Source: an uncultured Anaeromyxobacter sp. (GTDB lineage Bacteria; Myxococcota; Myxococcia; Myxococcales; Anaeromyxobacteraceae). From it: a DNA stretch of 52,399 nt. The notes beneath the pieces are model-generated. The model saw only the letters and a program-made list of their open reading frames with translations. It made no database searches and was not told the origin of the DNA. Of this stretch, positions 38,426-47,039 are shown piece by piece; the stretch's first letter is position 1, and the number at the start of each line of letters is the position of its first letter. The translations under genes were made by a program, and so were the position numbers. The stretch covers positions 1 through 52,399 of the forward strand of contig CAIVAR010000174.1 in the NCBI GenBank assembly GCA_903904005.1. Direction: 5' to 3'.

Positions 38426-39829
38426 TCAGCCGATGCCGGCCGAGCGCATCCGGCGCCAGAGCGTGCTCCGGCTCACGCCGAGGGCGCGGGCCGTGGCCAG
38501 CCGGTTCCAGCGGTTCTGCTCCAGCGCGGCGCGCAGCTCGACGTCGTCGACGGCCGCGGGAGGGGGCAGGGTGCGGGCCCGGCCGTCCGGCGCCTCCTCC
38601 GCCATCGCCGCCGAGGTCGCCGGGGCGATCTCCGGGGGAAGGTCCTCGGGCTGGAGGGTCTGCCCCTGGCAGACGGTGGCGGCGAACTCGAGCGCGTTCT
38701 CGAGCTCGCGGACGTTCCCCGGCCACTCGTAGGAGAGGAGCAGGCGGACGGCCTCCGGGGAGAGGCGCAGGGCACGACCCGTCCGGGAGCCCACGCGGGA
38801 CAGGAGGAGCCGGGCCATCGGCTCGATGTCCTCGCGGCGGCTGCGCAGCGGGGGAAGCTCGATGGGGAAGACCCGCAGCCGGTAGTAGAGGTCCTCGCGG
38901 AACCGGCCGTCGGCGACCAGCCGGCGCAGGTTCCGGTTGGTCGCGGCGATGATCCGGGCGTTGGTCCGTCGCGTCTGGCTGTCGCCGACCCGCTCGAAGG
39001 TGTGCTCCTGGAGGACGCGCAGGAGCTTCACCTGGAGGTGGAGCGGCACGTCGCCGACCTCGTCGAGGAAGAGCGTCCCGTCCTCGGCCGCCTCGAAGCG
39101 CCCGGCCCGGTCGCGGACGGCCCCGGTGAAGGCCCCCCGGACGTGGCCGAAGAGCTCGCTCTCGAGGAGCTCGCCGGGCAGCGCGGCAGCGTTCACCGCC
39201 AGGAACGGCCCGGCCTTCCGCGGGGAGTGGGCGTGGATGATCCGGGCGATGACCTCCTTGCCGGTCCCGCTCTCCCCGGTCACGAGCACCGTGGACTCGC
39301 TGTGCTGGAGCACGTCGATCATCCGGAAGACCCGGGCCATGGCCGGGGAGCGTGCGATGAGGCCGAAGCCGGCGATGGGGCCGCTCGCCTCCATCGTCGA
39401 CTCGTCGGCCGGGCGGAGGACCACGAGGTAGGTGGCGGAGGGGTCGCAGACGCCGAGACGGTCGGGGACGAGCGGTGCGACCGAGACCGACATGAGGCGT
39501 GCCGGGCCGTCCTTCACGCTGAACATCGCGCGCCATCCCTCCCGCTTCTCGCCGGCGAGCAGGGCCTGGCGCAGCGGCCCCTCGAGCCCGAAGAGCTCCG
39601 AGCCGAGCAAGGACTCGATCGAGAGCCCGCGGACCTGGGAGGCGGCCTCCGCGCCGAGGAGGGGGACGAGCAGGTCCGACGCGTAGCGGATCCGGAAGTC
39701 GGCATCGAGCGCCATGCAGATGCGGCCGAGCGAGCCGAAGGCGGCGTTCACCGCGGAGAAGGCCAGTTCCTGGTTGGTCAAGCTCGGGGCGCAGGCCAGG
39801 GGCGCCGTCTCGGGCCGTCGCGACGTCAT
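38426..39829 (-). CDS. Sigma-54 activator: PAS, AAA+ and Fis-type DNA-binding domains
   Basis: This 467-residue regulator has a PAS-like sensor region (about 25-140), a sigma-54 interaction AAA+ domain and a Fis-type helix-turn-helix (LATARALGVSRSTLWRRMRSAG). Walker A is GESGTGKE (185-192), the sigma-54 contact loop is GAFTGA (232-237) and Walker B is GTLFLDEVGD. There is no phosphoreceiver domain, so it probably senses a ligand or redox state through the PAS domain. It lies between two candidate sigma-54 promoters, the divergent cytochrome operon and fadL, and is the obvious activator of one or both. Inverted repeats overlap its own start, suggesting autoregulation. Confidence 0.93.
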   Translation of the reverse strand: MTSRRPETAPLACAPSLTNQELAFSAVNAAFGSLGRICMALDADFRIRYASDLLVPLLGAEAASQVRGLSIESLLGSELFGLEGPLRQALLAGEKREGWRAMFSVKDGPARLMSVSVAPLVPDRLGVCDPSATYLVVLRPADESTMEASGPIAGFGLIARSPAMARVFRMIDVLQHSESTVLVTGESGTGKEVIARIIHAHSPRKAGPFLAVNAAALPGELLESELFGHVRGAFTGAVRDRAGRFEAAEDGTLFLDEVGDVPLHLQVKLLRVLQEHTFERVGDSQTRRTNARIIAATNRNLRRLVADGRFREDLYYRLRVFPIELPPLRSRREDIEPMARLLLSRVGSRTGRALRLSPEAVRLLLSYEWPGNVRELENALEFAATVCQGQTLQPEDLPPEIAPATSAAMAEEAPDGRARTLPPPAAVDDVELRAALEQNRWNRLATARALGVSRSTLWRRMRSAGIG

Positions 39830-39891
39830 GTTTCACTCCTCATGAAACGGAATGTTTCGGTTGATTGAAACACATTGCCTCTCGTGTTTCA
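39829..39891. promoter_or_regulatory. TGTTTCA/TGAAACA inverted-repeat array (candidate enhancer)
   Basis: Five half-sites occur: TGTTTCA (39829), TGAAACG (39843), TGTTTCG (39853), TGAAACA (39866) and TGTTTCA (39885). They form two inverted repeats with 7- and 6-base spacers plus one single site. The array lies about 70-130 bases upstream of the predicted start of the cytochrome operon and overlaps the ATG of the activator gene. This is the classic layout for the enhancer of a sigma-54 activator that also represses itself. Confidence 0.65.
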
Positions 39892-39933
39892 TGCCGATCC
39901 TGCCAAGTGCCCGGAATCACGTGTTCCGATTCC

Positions 39934-39949
39934 AGGCACGACCCACGCA
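39934..39949 (+). promoter_or_regulatory. Candidate sigma-54 promoter of the octaheme cytochrome operon
   Basis: AGGCACGACCCACGCA carries GG and GC at the -24/-12 spacing and the GGCACG core. The expected transcription start is near 39960, about 40 bases before the GTG at 40002. The neighbouring activator gene and half-site array support it. Confidence 0.6.
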
Positions 39950-40001
39950 GAGGGCTCCATGCGAGCGACGAGCCGTTCCCCGACCTCCCCATGGACCCCC
40001 A

Positions 40002-41420
40002 GTGACGAAAAGGCATCTCCTCATCGGACTGACGTTTGTCGCTGCCATCGCGGTGGTGGTGGGCGTGGCGGTTGCCATCCAGCGTCCGCCCGTGCCGCCG
40101 CCGCCGGCCCCCGCCTACGCGCGGAAGCTCCGGCCCCACTTCGACCATGCGCCCGTCACCCCCGCGAAGTTCGAGAGCCCCCAGGCCGTGACCCGCTCCT
40201 GCCTCGGCTGCCACCCCGACGCGGCCCACGTGATGCGGAGCTCGCACTGGCAGTGGCTGGGCGACGAGGTTGCCGTCCCCGGCCACGACGGCAAGACCCG
40301 CATCGGGAAGATGAACCTGCTCAACAACTTCTGCCTGGTGAACCGGGGCAACGAGCGGTCCTGCACGAAGTGCCACATCGGCTACGGCTGGGCCGACGAC
40401 TCCTTCGACTTCCAGAAGGCGGAGAACGTCGATTGCCTCGTCTGCCACGAGCGGAGCGGAACGTACGTGAAGGGGATGTACGGGCTGCCCACCAAGGAGT
40501 CCGATCTCGTGGCCGCGGCCCGATCGGTCGGCACGCCGCAGCGGGAGAACTGCCTCGGCTGCCACGCCTTCGGCGGAGGCGGTCAGGGCGTGAAGCACGG
40601 CGACCTCGACTCGTCGCTCGCCCATCCCTTCGAGGAGGAGGACGTCCACATGGGCCGCCACGGCTTCCTCTGCGTGGACTGCCACCGGGCGCCCGATCAC
40701 CAGATCCAGGGCAAGGCCTTCTCGGTCAGCGTCGAGGACTCCCACGGCGTGGCCTGCGCCGACTGCCACGCCGGCCACCGGCACGCCGACGCCCGGGTCG
40801 ACGCCCACGTGAAGTCGGTCGCCTGCCAGACCTGCCACATCCCAGAGTTCGCCGGGAAGCTGCCCACCAAGGCGTGGTGGGACTGGAGCAAGGCCGGCGA
40901 CGCCGCGCGCAAGGAGGACCCGCACGGCTACCTCAAGATCAAGGGGGAGTTCGGTTACGAGCAGGGGGCCGTGCCGGAGTACCGCTGGTTCAACGGCACC
41001 GTGGGGCGCTACCTGCTCGGCGACAAGATCGACCCGACGAAGGTCACGCAACTCAACCCGCCGCTGGGCGGCATCGACGACCCGAAGGCGAAGATCTGGC
41101 CCTTCAAGATCCACCGCGGCAAGCAGCCCTACGACGCGGGATTCGACTACCTGTTCCCCCCGGTCACGGGCGGGAAGGACGGCTACTGGACCACGTTCGA
41201 CTGGGACAGCGCCTTCCGGCTCGGCGCCGCGGCCTCGAAGATCCCCTACAGCGGCAAGTACGGGTTCGCCCCCACCGAGATGCACTGGCCCCTCTCCCAC
41301 ATGGTCTCGACGAAGGAGAAGGCGCTCGCCTGCACCGACTGTCACGGCGAACGCTCCCGCATGGACTGGAAGGCACTCGGCTACGCGGCCGACCCCATCA
41401 AGACCGGAGGCCGCAAGTGA
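40002..41420 (+). CDS. Octaheme c-type cytochrome, tetrathionate reductase (OTR) family
   Basis: This 472-residue periplasmic protein has an N-terminal hydrophobic helix (about 5-27, signal or anchor) and exactly eight CXXCH heme sites: CLGCH, CTKCH, CLVCH, CLGCH, CVDCH, CADCH, CQTCH and CTDCH. NNFCLVNRGNERSCTKCH, GYGWADDSFDF and NVDCLVCH are the marks of the Shewanella-type octaheme tetrathionate reductase family, whose members reduce tetrathionate, nitrite or hydroxylamine in vitro. The physiological substrate here is unknown; the YedE neighbours favour sulfur. GTG 40002 is the only reasonable start; no good ribosome site precedes it. The stop overlaps the next GTG. Confidence 0.9.
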   Translation: MTKRHLLIGLTFVAAIAVVVGVAVAIQRPPVPPPPAPAYARKLRPHFDHAPVTPAKFESPQAVTRSCLGCHPDAAHVMRSSHWQWLGDEVAVPGHDGKTRIGKMNLLNNFCLVNRGNERSCTKCHIGYGWADDSFDFQKAENVDCLVCHERSGTYVKGMYGLPTKESDLVAAARSVGTPQRENCLGCHAFGGGGQGVKHGDLDSSLAHPFEEEDVHMGRHGFLCVDCHRAPDHQIQGKAFSVSVEDSHGVACADCHAGHRHADARVDAHVKSVACQTCHIPEFAGKLPTKAWWDWSKAGDAARKEDPHGYLKIKGEFGYEQGAVPEYRWFNGTVGRYLLGDKIDPTKVTQLNPPLGGIDDPKAKIWPFKIHRGKQPYDAGFDYLFPPVTGGKDGYWTTFDWDSAFRLGAAASKIPYSGKYGFAPTEMHWPLSHMVSTKEKALACTDCHGERSRMDWKALGYAADPIKTGGRK

Positions 41421-43669
41421 ACCGGCACATCGCGATCCTCCTCGCCCTCCTCCTCGCCGCGCCCGCGGCGGCCCAGCAGGGCGTGAACCCCATCCACCCG
41501 CTCTTCGCTCCCCTCGACGCCGCCGGCCAGAAGGTCCGGACCGCCGAGGCGATGGACGTCGCGAAGACCTGCGGCGCCTGCCACGACGCCGTCTACATCG
41601 CGGCCCACACCGACCACAAGCCGCCCCGGTCGGCGGCCACCTGCGTGCAGTGCCACGTCGCCGGCGGCAGGCTCGAGATCCGCGCCGACCGGCTGGACGC
41701 CGAGGGCAAGCTGAAGCGGGAGTCGATCCGGATCGGTCCTCCCCGCGCCGGCAGCTGCGGTGCCTGTCACGGCCTCGTCTCGGACGGGAGCGCCCCGGTG
41801 GCGATCCCGTCCGCCTTCGAGGGGCCGCCCGAGCCGGGGCGGACCTGGTCGCTCACCCTGGGTGAAGGGGCCGTCGTCGCCCCGCAGCGCATGTCCGACT
41901 CCTTCCTCGACCTCGAGGGCAAGGACGGGCTCGCCGCACCCTGGGACGTGCACGCCGCCAAGCTGGTGGACTGCGTCGCCTGCCACTATGCCCGCAACAG
42001 CCCGGCGCGCAGCGACGGCAAGCAGAGCCCGCTGCGGTACCTGACCGCCGACCCCCGCCGGCAGACCCAGGCCGAGTTCCTGGTGCGTCCCGACCACCGG
42101 CTCTCCGAGCAGGACTGCCGCGCCTGTCACGATCCGATGAAGGCCCACGCCTTCCTTCCCTACCGGGAGCGGCACATGGACGTGCTCTCCTGCGCCGCCT
42201 GCCACGCCGCCGGGTCGATGGGGCCCGCCGCGGAGATGGTGGACGCCACCGTGGTCACCGCGGCGGGTGGACCCGCCGTGCACTACCGGAACGTCGATCG
42301 GGTTCCCGGGGACACGATGAACACCGCACGGATCCGTGCCCTGCGTCCGCTCCTCGTCGAGCGGGTCGAGGCCGACGGCGTGCGCCGGGTGGCCCCGGTC
42401 AACCTGGTCACCCGCTACCGCTGGGCGTCCCGCCTCGACGGCGTCGACGTCCCGTTCGAGACCGTCGCCCGCGCCTGGCGCGACGGGGCAGGCTACGCGC
42501 CCGAGGTGGTGACCGCCTTCGACGCCGACCGGGACGGACGGATCGAGGGGGCCGAGCTCCGGCTCGACACGACGTGGAAGACCGAGCTCATCGCCGGTCG
42601 CCTGCGGTCGCTCGGCGTCGGGGATCCGGTGGTGGTGGGGAACCTCGACGCCCACCCCCTCGCCCACGGCATCTCCACGCGCGACCGCGCGCTCCGCGAC
42701 TGCGCCGCCTGCCACGCCGAGGACTCGCGCCTCTCCGACGACTACCTCGTCGCCTCCTTCCTCCCCGGCGGCATCGCGCCGCGGCCGCCCGAGGGGGCGC
42801 GCGTCGCGCTCGCGGGCGTGGTCGCGCCGGCGACCGGTGGCGGCCTCGTGCTCCGGCGGGAGCGGGAGGACGCGCCCGGCGGCCTCCACGTGCTCGGCCA
42901 TTCCCGCCAGGCCTGGACGAACCGGTTCGGCTTCCTCGCCTTCCTGGCGGTGCTGCTCGGTGTCACCGTCCACGGCGGACTGCGGTACGCCTTCCGTCGC
43001 CGGCGGGGGCAAGTCGCCCACGCCGAGGGGGAACGGGAGTACGTCTTCGGCCGCTACGAGCGGCTCTGGCACTGGACCATGGCGGTGAGCGGCGTGGCCC
43101 TCATCGTCACCGGCCTGGAGATCCACGGGACCGGGAACTGGAGCCTGATGCGCCTTCCCACCGCGGTGGCGATCCACAACGCCTTCGCCCTGATCCTCGT
43201 CCTGAACGCCTTCCTCGCGCTCTTCTACCACCTCGCCACCGCGGCCATCCGCAACTTCATCCCGCACGGCGACGGCTTCGTGGCCCGTGTCTTCGAGCAC
43301 ATGACCTACCAGGCGCGGGGCATCTTCTACGGCGAGTCACATCCCCGCAACGCCGCCGGGCAGAAGCTCAACCCCCTGCAGCAGATGACCTACCTGGCGC
43401 TCCTCAACGTCCTCTTCCCGCTCCAGATCGTCACCGGCGCGATCATCTGGGCGGTGGGGAAGTGGCCCGCGGTCGCCAGCGCGGTGGGCGGCCTCCACCA
43501 CGTGGCGCCCGTCCACAACCTGGGCGCCTGGATGTTCCTCACCTTCTTCGTGCTGCACGTCTACCTGGTCTCGACGGGGCGCACGCCCACTGACCACCTG
43601 AAGTCCATGATCACCGGCTACCAGCACGTCGACGTCCCCGACGCCGGGCCGGAAGGAGCCGCGCGATGA
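41417..43669 (+). CDS. Fused seven-heme cytochrome c and cytochrome b561, with EF-hand loop
   Basis: This 750-residue protein has a signal peptide, a periplasmic part with seven CXXCH sites (CGACH, CVQCH, CGACH, CVACH, CRACH, CAACH, CAACH) and a C-terminal membrane domain from about residue 540. The membrane part is cytochrome b561-like: YERLWHWTMAVSG, AVAIHNAFALILVLNAFLALFYH and VHNLGAWMFLTFFVLHVYLVS supply the histidines for two b hemes. At 369-380 a canonical EF-hand loop (DADRDGRIEGAE) suggests calcium binding. It probably takes electrons from menaquinol through the b hemes to the c hemes and on to the octaheme partner. GTG start overlaps the upstream stop; the stop overlaps the next ATG. 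Confidence 0.88.
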   Translation: MNRHIAILLALLLAAPAAAQQGVNPIHPLFAPLDAAGQKVRTAEAMDVAKTCGACHDAVYIAAHTDHKPPRSAATCVQCHVAGGRLEIRADRLDAEGKLKRESIRIGPPRAGSCGACHGLVSDGSAPVAIPSAFEGPPEPGRTWSLTLGEGAVVAPQRMSDSFLDLEGKDGLAAPWDVHAAKLVDCVACHYARNSPARSDGKQSPLRYLTADPRRQTQAEFLVRPDHRLSEQDCRACHDPMKAHAFLPYRERHMDVLSCAACHAAGSMGPAAEMVDATVVTAAGGPAVHYRNVDRVPGDTMNTARIRALRPLLVERVEADGVRRVAPVNLVTRYRWASRLDGVDVPFETVARAWRDGAGYAPEVVTAFDADRDGRIEGAELRLDTTWKTELIAGRLRSLGVGDPVVVGNLDAHPLAHGISTRDRALRDCAACHAEDSRLSDDYLVASFLPGGIAPRPPEGARVALAGVVAPATGGGLVLRREREDAPGGLHVLGHSRQAWTNRFGFLAFLAVLLGVTVHGGLRYAFRRRRGQVAHAEGEREYVFGRYERLWHWTMAVSGVALIVTGLEIHGTGNWSLMRLPTAVAIHNAFALILVLNAFLALFYHLATAAIRNFIPHGDGFVARVFEHMTYQARGIFYGESHPRNAAGQKLNPLQQMTYLALLNVLFPLQIVTGAIIWAVGKWPAVASAVGGLHHVAPVHNLGAWMFLTFFVLHVYLVSTGRTPTDHLKSMITGYQHVDVPDAGPEGAAR

Positions 43670-44190
43670 GCACGAGCCGTGAACCCCGCCCGTACGTCAA
43701 TCCCTACGTCGCCGGCACGTTGCTCGGGGTCGTGCTCTTCCTGAGCCTCTACGTCACCGGCGGCGGGCTGGGCGCGTCGGCGGCCATGAGCCGGGTCCAG
43801 ACCGGCGTCCTCGACCTGGTCGCACCGGGCCACGTGGACCGCGTCGCCTACTTCGCCGAGATGGCCGGAGGCGCGCGGAGCCCCTGGGCCCACTACTCCA
43901 TCTACATGCTCGTCGGGACGGTGCTCGGCGGCTTCGTCTCGGGGCTCTGGAACCGGCGCGTGAAGCTCGAGACCCGCAAGGGGCCGCGCATCTCCGTCCA
44001 CGCCCGCTGGGGATTCGCGCTCCTGGGTGGCCTCATCATGGGCTACGGGGCGCGCCTGGCCCGCGGATGCACGTCGGGCCAGGCCCTCTCCGGGGGTGCG
44101 GTGCTCTCGGTGGGCAGCTGGGCGTTCGCGATGGCGGTCTTCGCGAGCGCCTACGCGGTGGCCTGGTTCCTCCGCCGCCTCTGGATCTGA
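43666..44190 (+). CDS. YeeE/YedE family permease, first of two
   Basis: This 174-residue inner membrane protein has about four helices. GLIMGYGARLARGCTSGQALSGGAVLSVGSWAF is the YeeE/YedE signature, with a cysteine (GCTSG) that in the thiosulfate transporter YeeE relays the sulfur substrate by hydrogen bonds. Half-size members work in pairs. The next gene is the other half. Overlaps the cytochrome stop as ATGA, so it belongs to the same operon. Confidence 0.88.
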   Translation: MSTSREPRPYVNPYVAGTLLGVVLFLSLYVTGGGLGASAAMSRVQTGVLDLVAPGHVDRVAYFAEMAGGARSPWAHYSIYMLVGTVLGGFVSGLWNRRVKLETRKGPRISVHARWGFALLGGLIMGYGARLARGCTSGQALSGGAVLSVGSWAFAMAVFASAYAVAWFLRRLWI

Positions 44191-44209: not shown

Positions 44210-45529
44210 ATGGCACCCTTCGACCTCGCTGCATCCCTCGGTCCCGTCGCCTATGCCCTCGTGTTCGGAGCCATCGGCTTCGGCTTCGGCGCCGCCCTGG
44301 AGATGGGCGGCTTCGGCGACACCCGCAAGCTGGCCGGGCAGTTCTACTTCCAGGACATGACCGTCCTGAAGGTGATGTTCACGGGGATCGCCGTCGCGGC
44401 GGTCCTCGTCGCCCTGGCCACGTCGTTCGGCCTGCTCGACATGAGCCGGGTCTTCGTGAACCCCACCTACCTCTGGCCCGGCATCGTCGGCGGCCTGATC
44501 ATGGGCGTCGGCTTCGTGATCGGTGGCTTCTGCCCCGGGACCTCGATCGTGGCGGCCTCGACGCTCAAGGTGGACGGGATCTTCTTCCTCCTCGGTGCGC
44601 TCGGCGGGGTCTGGCTCTTCGGGGAGACCGTCGGGAGCATCCAGGGATTCTGGCTCTCCTCGTACATGGGGCGCTTCACGCTGCCCGAGTGGCTCGGCCT
44701 TCCGCTGGGCGTCACCGTCCTCCTCGTCGTGGTCATGGCGGTGGCCCTCTTCTGGGCCGGCGACCTGGCCCAGCAGCACTTTGGCCAGAAGCGCCCGTGG
44801 GCGGAGGTCGTGAAGGGGCCGGGACGCGGCTGGCAGGTCCTCGCCGGGGCGCTCGTCGCCGCGAGCCTCTTCCTCGTCGTCCGCGGCCAGCCGGACCCCG
44901 AGGCGAAGTTCGCCCGCATGGGGCCGGCGGTGAAGAAGGCGGTTGCGGAGCGGGAGATCTTCGTCGACCCGGCCGAGGTGGTGGCCCTCAGGAAGGACAT
45001 CGGCGTGCAGGTCGTCCTCGTCGACCTCCGCGACGAGCGGGACTTCAACCTCTTCCACGTGGGCGGATCGCGGCGCGCCACCCTCGCCGAGCTGGAGTCC
45101 CCGGAGCGGCTGAAGCCCCTGCTCGACCAGCCGCCCACCACCGTCACCTTCCTGATCGGGAACGGCGAGGCCGAGGCGCTTCGGGCGTGGCGCCAGCTCA
45201 CCGCGCTCGGGGTGCCCAACGTCTACGTGGTCGACGGGGGGGTGAACCGGTGGCTGGAGCGGTACCCCGTCGAGGCATGCGTGGCCGACCGGATCGGCAA
45301 GGCCGAGGCCGGTGACGCGCCGGCCTGGCGGTTCCGGTACGCCACCGGGAGCACCCAGCCCGCGGCGTGGCCGGAGTTGGGCAGCTCCCCGTCGTTCCGT
45401 TCCCCCTGCGGGGAGGCGGCGGCGGACGGGCACGGGAGCACGCACCATGCGCGCACCTGGCCGGCCCACGCCTACACGAAGCGGGTGAAGCTCAAGTCGA
45501 AGGCCGCCGTGAAGGGCGGCTGCGGGTAG
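44210..45529 (+). CDS. YeeE/YedE permease fused to a rhodanese-like domain
   Basis: This 439-residue protein has a YeeE/YedE membrane half (IGGFCPGTSIVAAST carries the conserved Cys) up to about residue 240. A rhodanese-like domain follows from about 255 to 365 (FVDPAEVVALRKDIGVQVVLVDLRDERDFNLFHVGGSRRATLAEL). The active-site loop reads FLIGNGEAEA: the catalytic Cys is missing (Ile at its place), so sulfur transfer is unlikely and a binding role more so. A basic tail ending KGGCG holds other cysteines. It completes the operon and fits thiosulfate or sulfur-anion movement. Confidence 0.87.
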   Translation: MAPFDLAASLGPVAYALVFGAIGFGFGAALEMGGFGDTRKLAGQFYFQDMTVLKVMFTGIAVAAVLVALATSFGLLDMSRVFVNPTYLWPGIVGGLIMGVGFVIGGFCPGTSIVAASTLKVDGIFFLLGALGGVWLFGETVGSIQGFWLSSYMGRFTLPEWLGLPLGVTVLLVVVMAVALFWAGDLAQQHFGQKRPWAEVVKGPGRGWQVLAGALVAASLFLVVRGQPDPEAKFARMGPAVKKAVAEREIFVDPAEVVALRKDIGVQVVLVDLRDERDFNLFHVGGSRRATLAELESPERLKPLLDQPPTTVTFLIGNGEAEALRAWRQLTALGVPNVYVVDGGVNRWLERYPVEACVADRIGKAEAGDAPAWRFRYATGSTQPAAWPELGSSPSFRSPCGEAAADGHGSTHHARTWPAHAYTKRVKLKSKAAVKGGCG

Positions 45530-46073: not shown

Positions 46074-46580
46074 TCACATCCCGGCGAAGAGCATTCCCTG
46101 GGTCAGGATGACGGCGCCGAAGGCCACGAGCAGGAGGCCCGAGGCCCAGCGGATCGCGACGGGGTGGGACGACACCAGCCGGACCCGCTGCCGGAGCGCC
46201 TGGGATCCGTAGCCCACGGCCAGCATGGGGACCGCGAAGCCGAGGGAGTAGACGAGGAGCAGGACGACGCCGGTCCCCAGCGACCCCTTCGCGGCCACCA
46301 GCGCGAGCACGCCCGAGAGCATCGGGCCCACGCAGGGGATCCAGACGAGCCCCAGGGTGAGGCCGAGCAGGAGGCCCGACCAGCGCCCGCGTCCGCCCGC
46401 CTGGATCCGGTTCACCCAGGTGAACCTCTTGAAGAGGTTGACGTCGGCGAGGAGGAGGAGGCCGAAGGCGACGATCATGACGCCGAAGGCCTTCTCGAGG
46501 TAGGGGAGGGCCGGGCCGATAGCGCCTCCGAAGAGGCTCGTCACCACCCCCATGAGGACGAAGCTGGCGAACCTGGGCCG
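46074..46580 (-). pseudogene. ccdA: ccdA remnant, 5' part missing
   Basis: From about 46580 the minus strand encodes FASFVLMGVVTSLFGGAIG and four to five further helices, including LVWIPCVGPMLSGVLAL with one redox Cys, which fit helices 2-6 of CcdA, the thiol-disulfide carrier of cytochrome c maturation. The first helix with the SPC-type motif and about 60-70 residues are absent. Upstream sequence in this frame only antisenses the thioredoxin gene. The ATG at 46628 lies in that out-of-frame part. I read this as a deletion that fused the end of the thioredoxin gene to the middle of ccdA, out of frame. Confidence 0.65.
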
Positions 46581-46920
46581 CCGACTGGATGCCGGGCGTC
46601 GCCCGGCGGATCTCCTTGCCGGAGGCATCCGTGACGACCAGCGTCGGCAGTGAACGGATCCCGTACTGCTGGAACTTTGCGATGTCGGCCGGCACGGTGG
46701 TTTTCAGGTAGACCACCTCGGCCTTCCCCTTCAGCTCCGGCGCCATCTCCAGGAGGATACGGTCCTGCATCTGGCAGGGCGCGCCGTTCGGGTTCATGAA
46801 GAAGACGATGCGGGGGAGGGATGCAGGGGCCCGGGGGGCGTCGGCGAGCGCCGGCGCCGCGAGGGCGGCCAGGGTGGCGAGGACGAGCAGGCGAGCCTGA
46901 CGGGGCAGGGGGAGCGTCAT
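46570..46920 (-). pseudogene. Exported thioredoxin-like protein gene, 3' end lost at a ccdA junction
   Basis: The ATG at 46920 (alternative 46926) opens a signal peptide and a thioredoxin-like domain: LPRIVFFMNPNGAPCQMQDRIL, KAEVVYLKTTVPADIAKFQQYGIRSLPTLVVTDASGKE. The usual CxxC is reduced to a single cysteine (GAPC), as in a known periplasmic subgroup with ccdA neighbours. Family-like sequence stops at about GIQSAAQ (near 46575). The frame then runs out of frame through ccdA sequence to a stop at 46009. The encoded thioredoxin may still fold, with a long nonsense tail. Confidence 0.6.
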
Positions 46921-47039
46921 GGGCATTCTCCGCGTGGGGTGAGGAGGGCAACGGCCGTTCTTCCCCTTGGAGCCCCCCGGCCGGGACCCGATTCAGGGTT
47001 TCTTCGAACCCGACCGGTCAGGTCCGGCTCTTGGTTCCC

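Follow-up and report, generated by a model that had tools for sequence, protein, structure and literature searches.

Background

The physiological electron donor of octaheme tetrathionate reductase (OTR) and its substrate are still debated. One published genome has OTR together with a "cytochrome b561 protein", with the suggestion that the electrons come from the quinone pool (PMC7509429). The cytochrome family described below is seemingly undescribed beyond this "OTR with cytochrome b561". Another multiheme enzyme, the cytochrome c nitrite reductase NrfA, carries a functional Ca2+, which is replaced in some lineages (PMC12285233). Loops of the Dx[DN]xDG type bind Ca2+ in a nearly identical way in unrelated folds (PMC3123361); that paper mentions neither cytochromes nor heme, and the protein considered here would be another structural context for them.

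We report on a stretch of 52,399 nucleotides from an uncultured Anaeromyxobacter sp. (the whole stretch analysed, hereafter the window), where a multiheme cytochrome with such a loop is encoded next to OTR, an eight-heme tetrathionate/nitrite reductase. This is a putative calcium loop of a known kind in a new setting, apparently undescribed: in the open-access literature searched, no multiheme cytochrome is described with such a loop.

Results

The cytochrome and its relation to OTR and FdnI

The gene, its membrane part and its upstream neighbour are as follows.

39852..41420, plus strand: OTR (octaheme tetrathionate reductase family), the probable redox partner; TIGR04315, 521 bits at a cut-off of 375
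41417..43669, plus strand: seven-heme cytochrome c / b561 fusion protein, 750 aa; from the open reading frame, Pfam and relatives
42911..43006, plus strand: additional membrane helix, residues 499-530, with invariant His519 and Arg523; from the alignment and AF2
43046..43618, plus strand: b561-type (FdnI-like) membrane part; Pfam match PF01292 at residues 544-734, Z 14.8 to 1kqf_C

The fusion gene starts with GTG and overlaps the stop codon of the OTR gene. The N-terminus of the protein is a signal-type helix. Seven CxxCH motifs start at residues 52, 76, 114, 186, 234, 259 and 429; the longest inter-heme gap of the protein, 170 residues, separates heme 6 from heme 7, which is the last c-heme in the sequence before the membrane helix. 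The PF01292 score is 72 bits, above the gathering cut-off of 30.1.

The c-part has the fold of OTR. It matches the OTR of Shewanella oneidensis (PDB 1sp3) with Z 11.1 over 283 residues at 4.6 A (Foldseek E 1.5e-5), and in hhalign it matches an alignment of the neighbouring OTRs with 97.5% probability and E 7e-12. Hemes 1-6 align there with OTR hemes 2-7, and the heme 7 region matches OTR heme 8 with 43% identity, the preceding His-containing stretch included (HPLAHGIST...CAACH and HWPLSHMVST...CTDCH). In contrast to OTR, this cytochrome has no counterpart of the first heme, comes with a b561 part, fused or linked, and contains a putative calcium helix-loop-helix, which falls in a stretch not alignable with OTR; with TIGR04315 it scores 22.8 bits and does not reach the cut-off of 375. 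The membrane part has the fold of FdnI, which in formate dehydrogenase N is the gamma subunit, and resembles the other cytochromes b of PF01292. Unlike FdnI, it is joined to an OTR-like multiheme cytochrome c instead of working with an iron-sulfur subunit. The fusion protein looks like an OTR paralogue minus its first heme, to which a putative calcium module and a cytochrome b of the quinol type have been added.

Relatives were collected by a genome search and by a scan of genome contigs, and 62 non-redundant proteins from at least six phyla were kept. They come from Anaeromyxobacteraceae and other Myxococcota, Chloroflexota, Eiseniibacteriota, Spirochaetota, Planctomycetota, Acidobacteriota and Aminicenantes. 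The cultured A. oryzae (L024) also has the gene. The fused form was seen in Anaeromyxobacteraceae, Chloroflexota, Eiseniibacteriota and one spirochaete. A split form, with b561 encoded by its own gene, occurs in the Planctomycetota relative, in Acidobacteriota/Aminicenantes and in a second family of Myxococcota; there the c-protein ends in a membrane helix of its own with conserved HG-LR. Helix 499-530 is a part of the c-cytochrome protein in the split form too. At positions 42971-42985 of the window (residues 519-523), His519 and Arg523 are invariant in 40/40 aligned relatives, including those with separate b561. A role as heme b ligand or in the quinol site is conceivable for His519.

We do not present the b561 fusion as a novelty, considering that the two parts are fused in several groups, split in others, and the arrangement is not peculiar to this genome. 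Selenocysteine at the in-frame TGA of some relatives was also considered and rejected. In two of them (L011 and L014) this TGA is the stop between the c-cytochrome gene and the separate b561 gene; in two others (L008 and L009) there is no stop inside the aligned protein.

Gene neighbourhood

Two genes for parts of a sulfur transporter lie downstream of the cytochrome.

43666..44190, plus strand: YeeE/YedE-type sulfur transporter, half-length; PF04143, synteny
44246..45529, plus strand: second YeeE/YedE half fused to rhodanese; PF04143, PF00581

The OTR gene is adjacent to the cytochrome gene in 47 of the 62 relatives (within the fetched stretch), and a half-length YeeE/YedE gene follows the cytochrome in nearly all the OTR-linked ones. 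This order, with OTR upstream and the YeeE/YedE half downstream, is kept across phyla. In three loci of other Myxococcota families (L015, L016, L017) OTR, separate b561 and YeeE stand in the same order, with no recognisable seven-heme calcium-loop cytochrome between them.

The putative calcium loop and its conservation

42521..42556, plus strand: EF-hand-like calcium loop DADRDGRIEGAE, residues 369-380; from the open reading frame, conservation and a pattern scan

A preliminary description of this DNA had placed an EF-hand loop (residues 369-380) at 42519-42560, between the sixth and seventh c-heme sites. This is correct; the interval encloses the exact bases, and the location agrees with the CxxCH positions on the two sides (259 and 429). 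The pattern D-x-[DN]-x-[DN]-G-x-[LIVM]-x3-E has one match in the DNA of the window, exactly at this loop, while a mean of 0.01 matches per window is expected by chance (100 shuffles).

The loop is intact in 52 of the 62 relatives, and the remaining 10 form one Acidobacteriota clade. The conservation of the Asp residues in homologues, which the preliminary description had proposed as a check, is well borne out: the ligands are kept in all 52 relatives outside this clade. Position 1 is Asp and position 12 is Glu in 52/52; position 3 is only Asn or Asp, and position 5 only Asp or Asn (Asn in 14/52). Gly occupies position 6 in 50/52, Leu, Ile or Val position 8, and S, D, E or T position 9 in 47/52. 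Directly before the loop stands F or L, and positions 4, 7, 10 and 11 vary freely. Such conservation is far beyond chance. Judged from the sequences, conservation of 1-3-5-6-8-9-12 with free variation between is a Ca2+-ligand pattern. The linear motif Dx[DN]xDG, which marks such Ca2+-binding loops in any fold, is conserved as well. Within residues 270-425 Asp369 and Glu380 are the top-conserved positions (100%, tied with Trp336 and His417; the column mean is 51%). Asp384, after the loop, is likewise conserved.

In the 10 Acidobacteriota relatives position 1 is gone (a one-residue gap) and position 12 is Gln or His. A tree was built without the loop columns and midpoint-rooted, the root being not independently fixed. 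These 10 proteins lie on a single branch (support 100/98) with intact Aminicenantes-type copies alongside, and the degenerate loop requires one change. Apart from this clade, all deep branches have the intact loop (Myxococcota, Chloroflexota, Eiseniibacteriota, Spirochaetota, Planctomycetota and Aminicenantes). Because the degenerate copies form one branch, the loop is most simply ancestral and degraded once. The clade keeps the cytochrome without ligands 1 and 12, and therefore Ca2+ is not indispensable to the fold; the clade can be viewed as a natural control.

All 47 OTR-linked copies have the loop, and the 10 loop-less copies have no OTR in the locus. A strict coupling of the loop with OTR is nevertheless rejected, since the tree needs a single event for the loop change, and four Aminicenantes-type relatives keep the loop in loci without OTR; for the same reasons the association is not independent evidence. 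At E 1e-20, OTR is absent from the six Acidobacteriota genomes and the one Aminicenantes genome tested. The Acidobacteriota loci L053-L057, L059 and L076-L079 have the seven-heme cytochrome and separate b561, with no OTR in the locus.

Predicted fold around the loop

42380..42682, plus strand: segment of residues 322-422, folded and searched alone; AF2, PDB profile search
42500..42610, plus strand: helix-loop-helix around the loop, with entering helix 362-368, short turn 378-380 and helix 386-398; AF2

The AF2 models, which contain neither heme nor Ca2+, have pLDDT 87.7 and pTM 0.82 for the whole protein and pLDDT 89.9 for the module. The order in the segment is strand 323-338, helix 347-354, the helix-loop-helix, strand 404-414 and then the invariant His417. 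The helix-loop-helix block, the prediction of which had been suggested as another check, has pLDDT >90. The preliminary description would have been refuted by unconserved loop residues and a missing helix-loop-helix; put to this test, the idea survived.

The preliminary description called this a "canonical EF-hand loop". The part of the claim that stands concerns the loop and what precedes it: 12 residues with ligands at 1, 3, 5 and 12 and Gly at 6, and the entering helix 362-368 before them, predicted with high pLDDT. The word "canonical" goes too far. Residues 381-385 are non-helical in the model, so there is no continuous exit helix from about position 10; the exit helix is broken by a conserved LRLD segment. 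The Pfam EF-hand scores are 13-18 bits, short of the gathering cut-offs of 25.0-25.9, for the protein of the window and four matching or near-matching relatives scanned whole. A profile of 40 segments (A3) searched against PDB does find secretagogin (1.6e-9) and many calmodulins (about 1e-5), the alignment covering the loop stretch only, and a profile of the whole c-part matches EF-hand proteins at the same site.

No second EF-hand loop was found in the sequence, and Foldseek and VIA-align of the module alone gave no significant match. We do not claim a degenerate partner EF-hand upstream (VPFETVARAW), where the model has a strand and then a helix, with no EF-hand match by Foldseek or VIA-align; the absence of a match proves nothing in itself. 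The resemblance of the module to penicillin-binding proteins (Foldseek E 0.5 or worse) is put down to chance.

With calmodulin and secretagogin the cytochrome shares the 12-residue loop, the preceding hydrophobic residue, the entering helix and a detectable profile similarity. It differs from them in that the loop is single, with no pair seen, the exit helix is interrupted, and the whole is embedded between beta strands. The non-EF-hand Dx[DN]xDG loops (PMC3123361) have the same linear motif in an unrelated fold, and some of their relatives are without the motif. Because of the broken exit helix, and since no paired EF-hand is seen, we use the label "EF-hand-like" for this single, atypical Dx[DN]xDG loop and do not count it as a standard EF-hand.

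Discussion

We presume that the protein is a quinol-oxidising, membrane-anchored electron donor of the neighbouring OTR, with a mainly structural Ca2+ site between hemes 6 and 7, and consider this a likely reading. Electrons would enter from menaquinol at the FdnI-like b-heme domain and pass from the b-hemes to the seven c-hemes of the OTR-like fold, from heme 7 onwards, and then to OTR in the periplasm. The loop Dx[DN]xDGx[LIV]xxxE would bind one Ca2+ between c-hemes 6 and 7. The ion would act as a permanent structural staple that joins helix 362-368 with the turn and helix 386-398 and thereby fixes strand 404-414, His417 (probably a heme ligand) and heme 7.

According to the preliminary description, calcium could "control or stabilise" electron flow between the c-heme and b-heme parts. 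Stabilisation is likely; control is supported by no more than the position of the loop. A permanent ion suits the protein better than a switch because the loop is single, near-invariant and apparently unpaired, and the protein is periplasmic. The switch would mean that binding or release of Ca2+ alters the geometry between heme 6, heme 7 and the b-hemes, so that electron flow is gated by periplasmic Ca2+. In its favour are the location of the loop between hemes 6 and 7, just ahead of the membrane part, and two precedents: bacterial diheme cytochrome c peroxidases are Ca2+-activated, and in NOX5 EF-hands are coupled to a membrane b-cytochrome. However, a single loop with no partner EF-hand seen is not expected to be cooperative, and the near-absolute conservation of the ligands fits a permanent site at least equally well; we find the switch unlikely. 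We consider it rather improbable that this is a widespread family of quinol:OTR electron-transfer cytochromes, so far unnamed, whose EF-hand-like Ca2+ site lies in the electron path and tunes or gates the transfer between c-hemes and b-hemes, i.e., a bacterial analogue of NOX5-like Ca2+-regulated transmembrane cytochromes.

Calcium might instead guide folding or heme attachment between hemes 6 and 7 and have little role in the mature protein. The length of this gap, the longest in the protein, agrees with this, and a folding role of Dx[DN]xDG-bound Ca2+ is documented for Thermococcus subtilisin (PMC3123361); however, OTR spans an equally long gap with no such loop, and we consider the explanation very improbable. 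Nor do we expect that no Ca2+ is bound at all and the acidic residues are kept for helix capping or for a contact with heme or OTR, for which there is equally little chance. The Pfam EF-hand scores under the cut-off agree with such a reading, and the conserved Asp384 probably does cap helix 386-398. Yet Ca2+ binding calls for just such conservation at 1-3-5-6-8-9-12 with variation allowed in between, and it is one and the same clade that lacks both position 1 and position 12.

The proposed structural site has a parallel in NrfA, where calcium belongs to a multiheme enzyme and is replaced in some lineages, much as in the Acidobacteriota clade without two ligands. In NrfA the calcium is next to the active-site heme, and PMC12285233 does not describe an EF-hand-like loop. 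The observation adds a putative calcium site, conserved across several phyla, to a family of respiratory multiheme cytochromes, and OTR gains a consistent candidate electron donor. We believe that the interest is high only if Ca2+ controls electron flow; otherwise it is moderate.

Other observations in the locus

For OTR the listed start (ATG 39852) is probably wrong; the true one is probably GTG 40002, where a membrane-anchor-like sequence begins. A sigma-54 activator gene (38426-39829, minus strand) is divergent from OTR. Between the two, at 39830-40001, two TGTTTC...GAAAC inverted repeats can be seen by eye; a 12-nt inverted repeat (39907-39918/39928-39939) lies in the same stretch. Near 39934 it also has a GG-N10-GC element similar to a -24/-12 promoter; a scan of the whole window with the consensus sigma-54 promoter gave no excess over chance. 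On the minus strand at 46074-46926, a thioredoxin-like protein and a DsbD-like membrane protein for cytochrome c biogenesis are encoded, in apparently overlapping or frameshifted frames.
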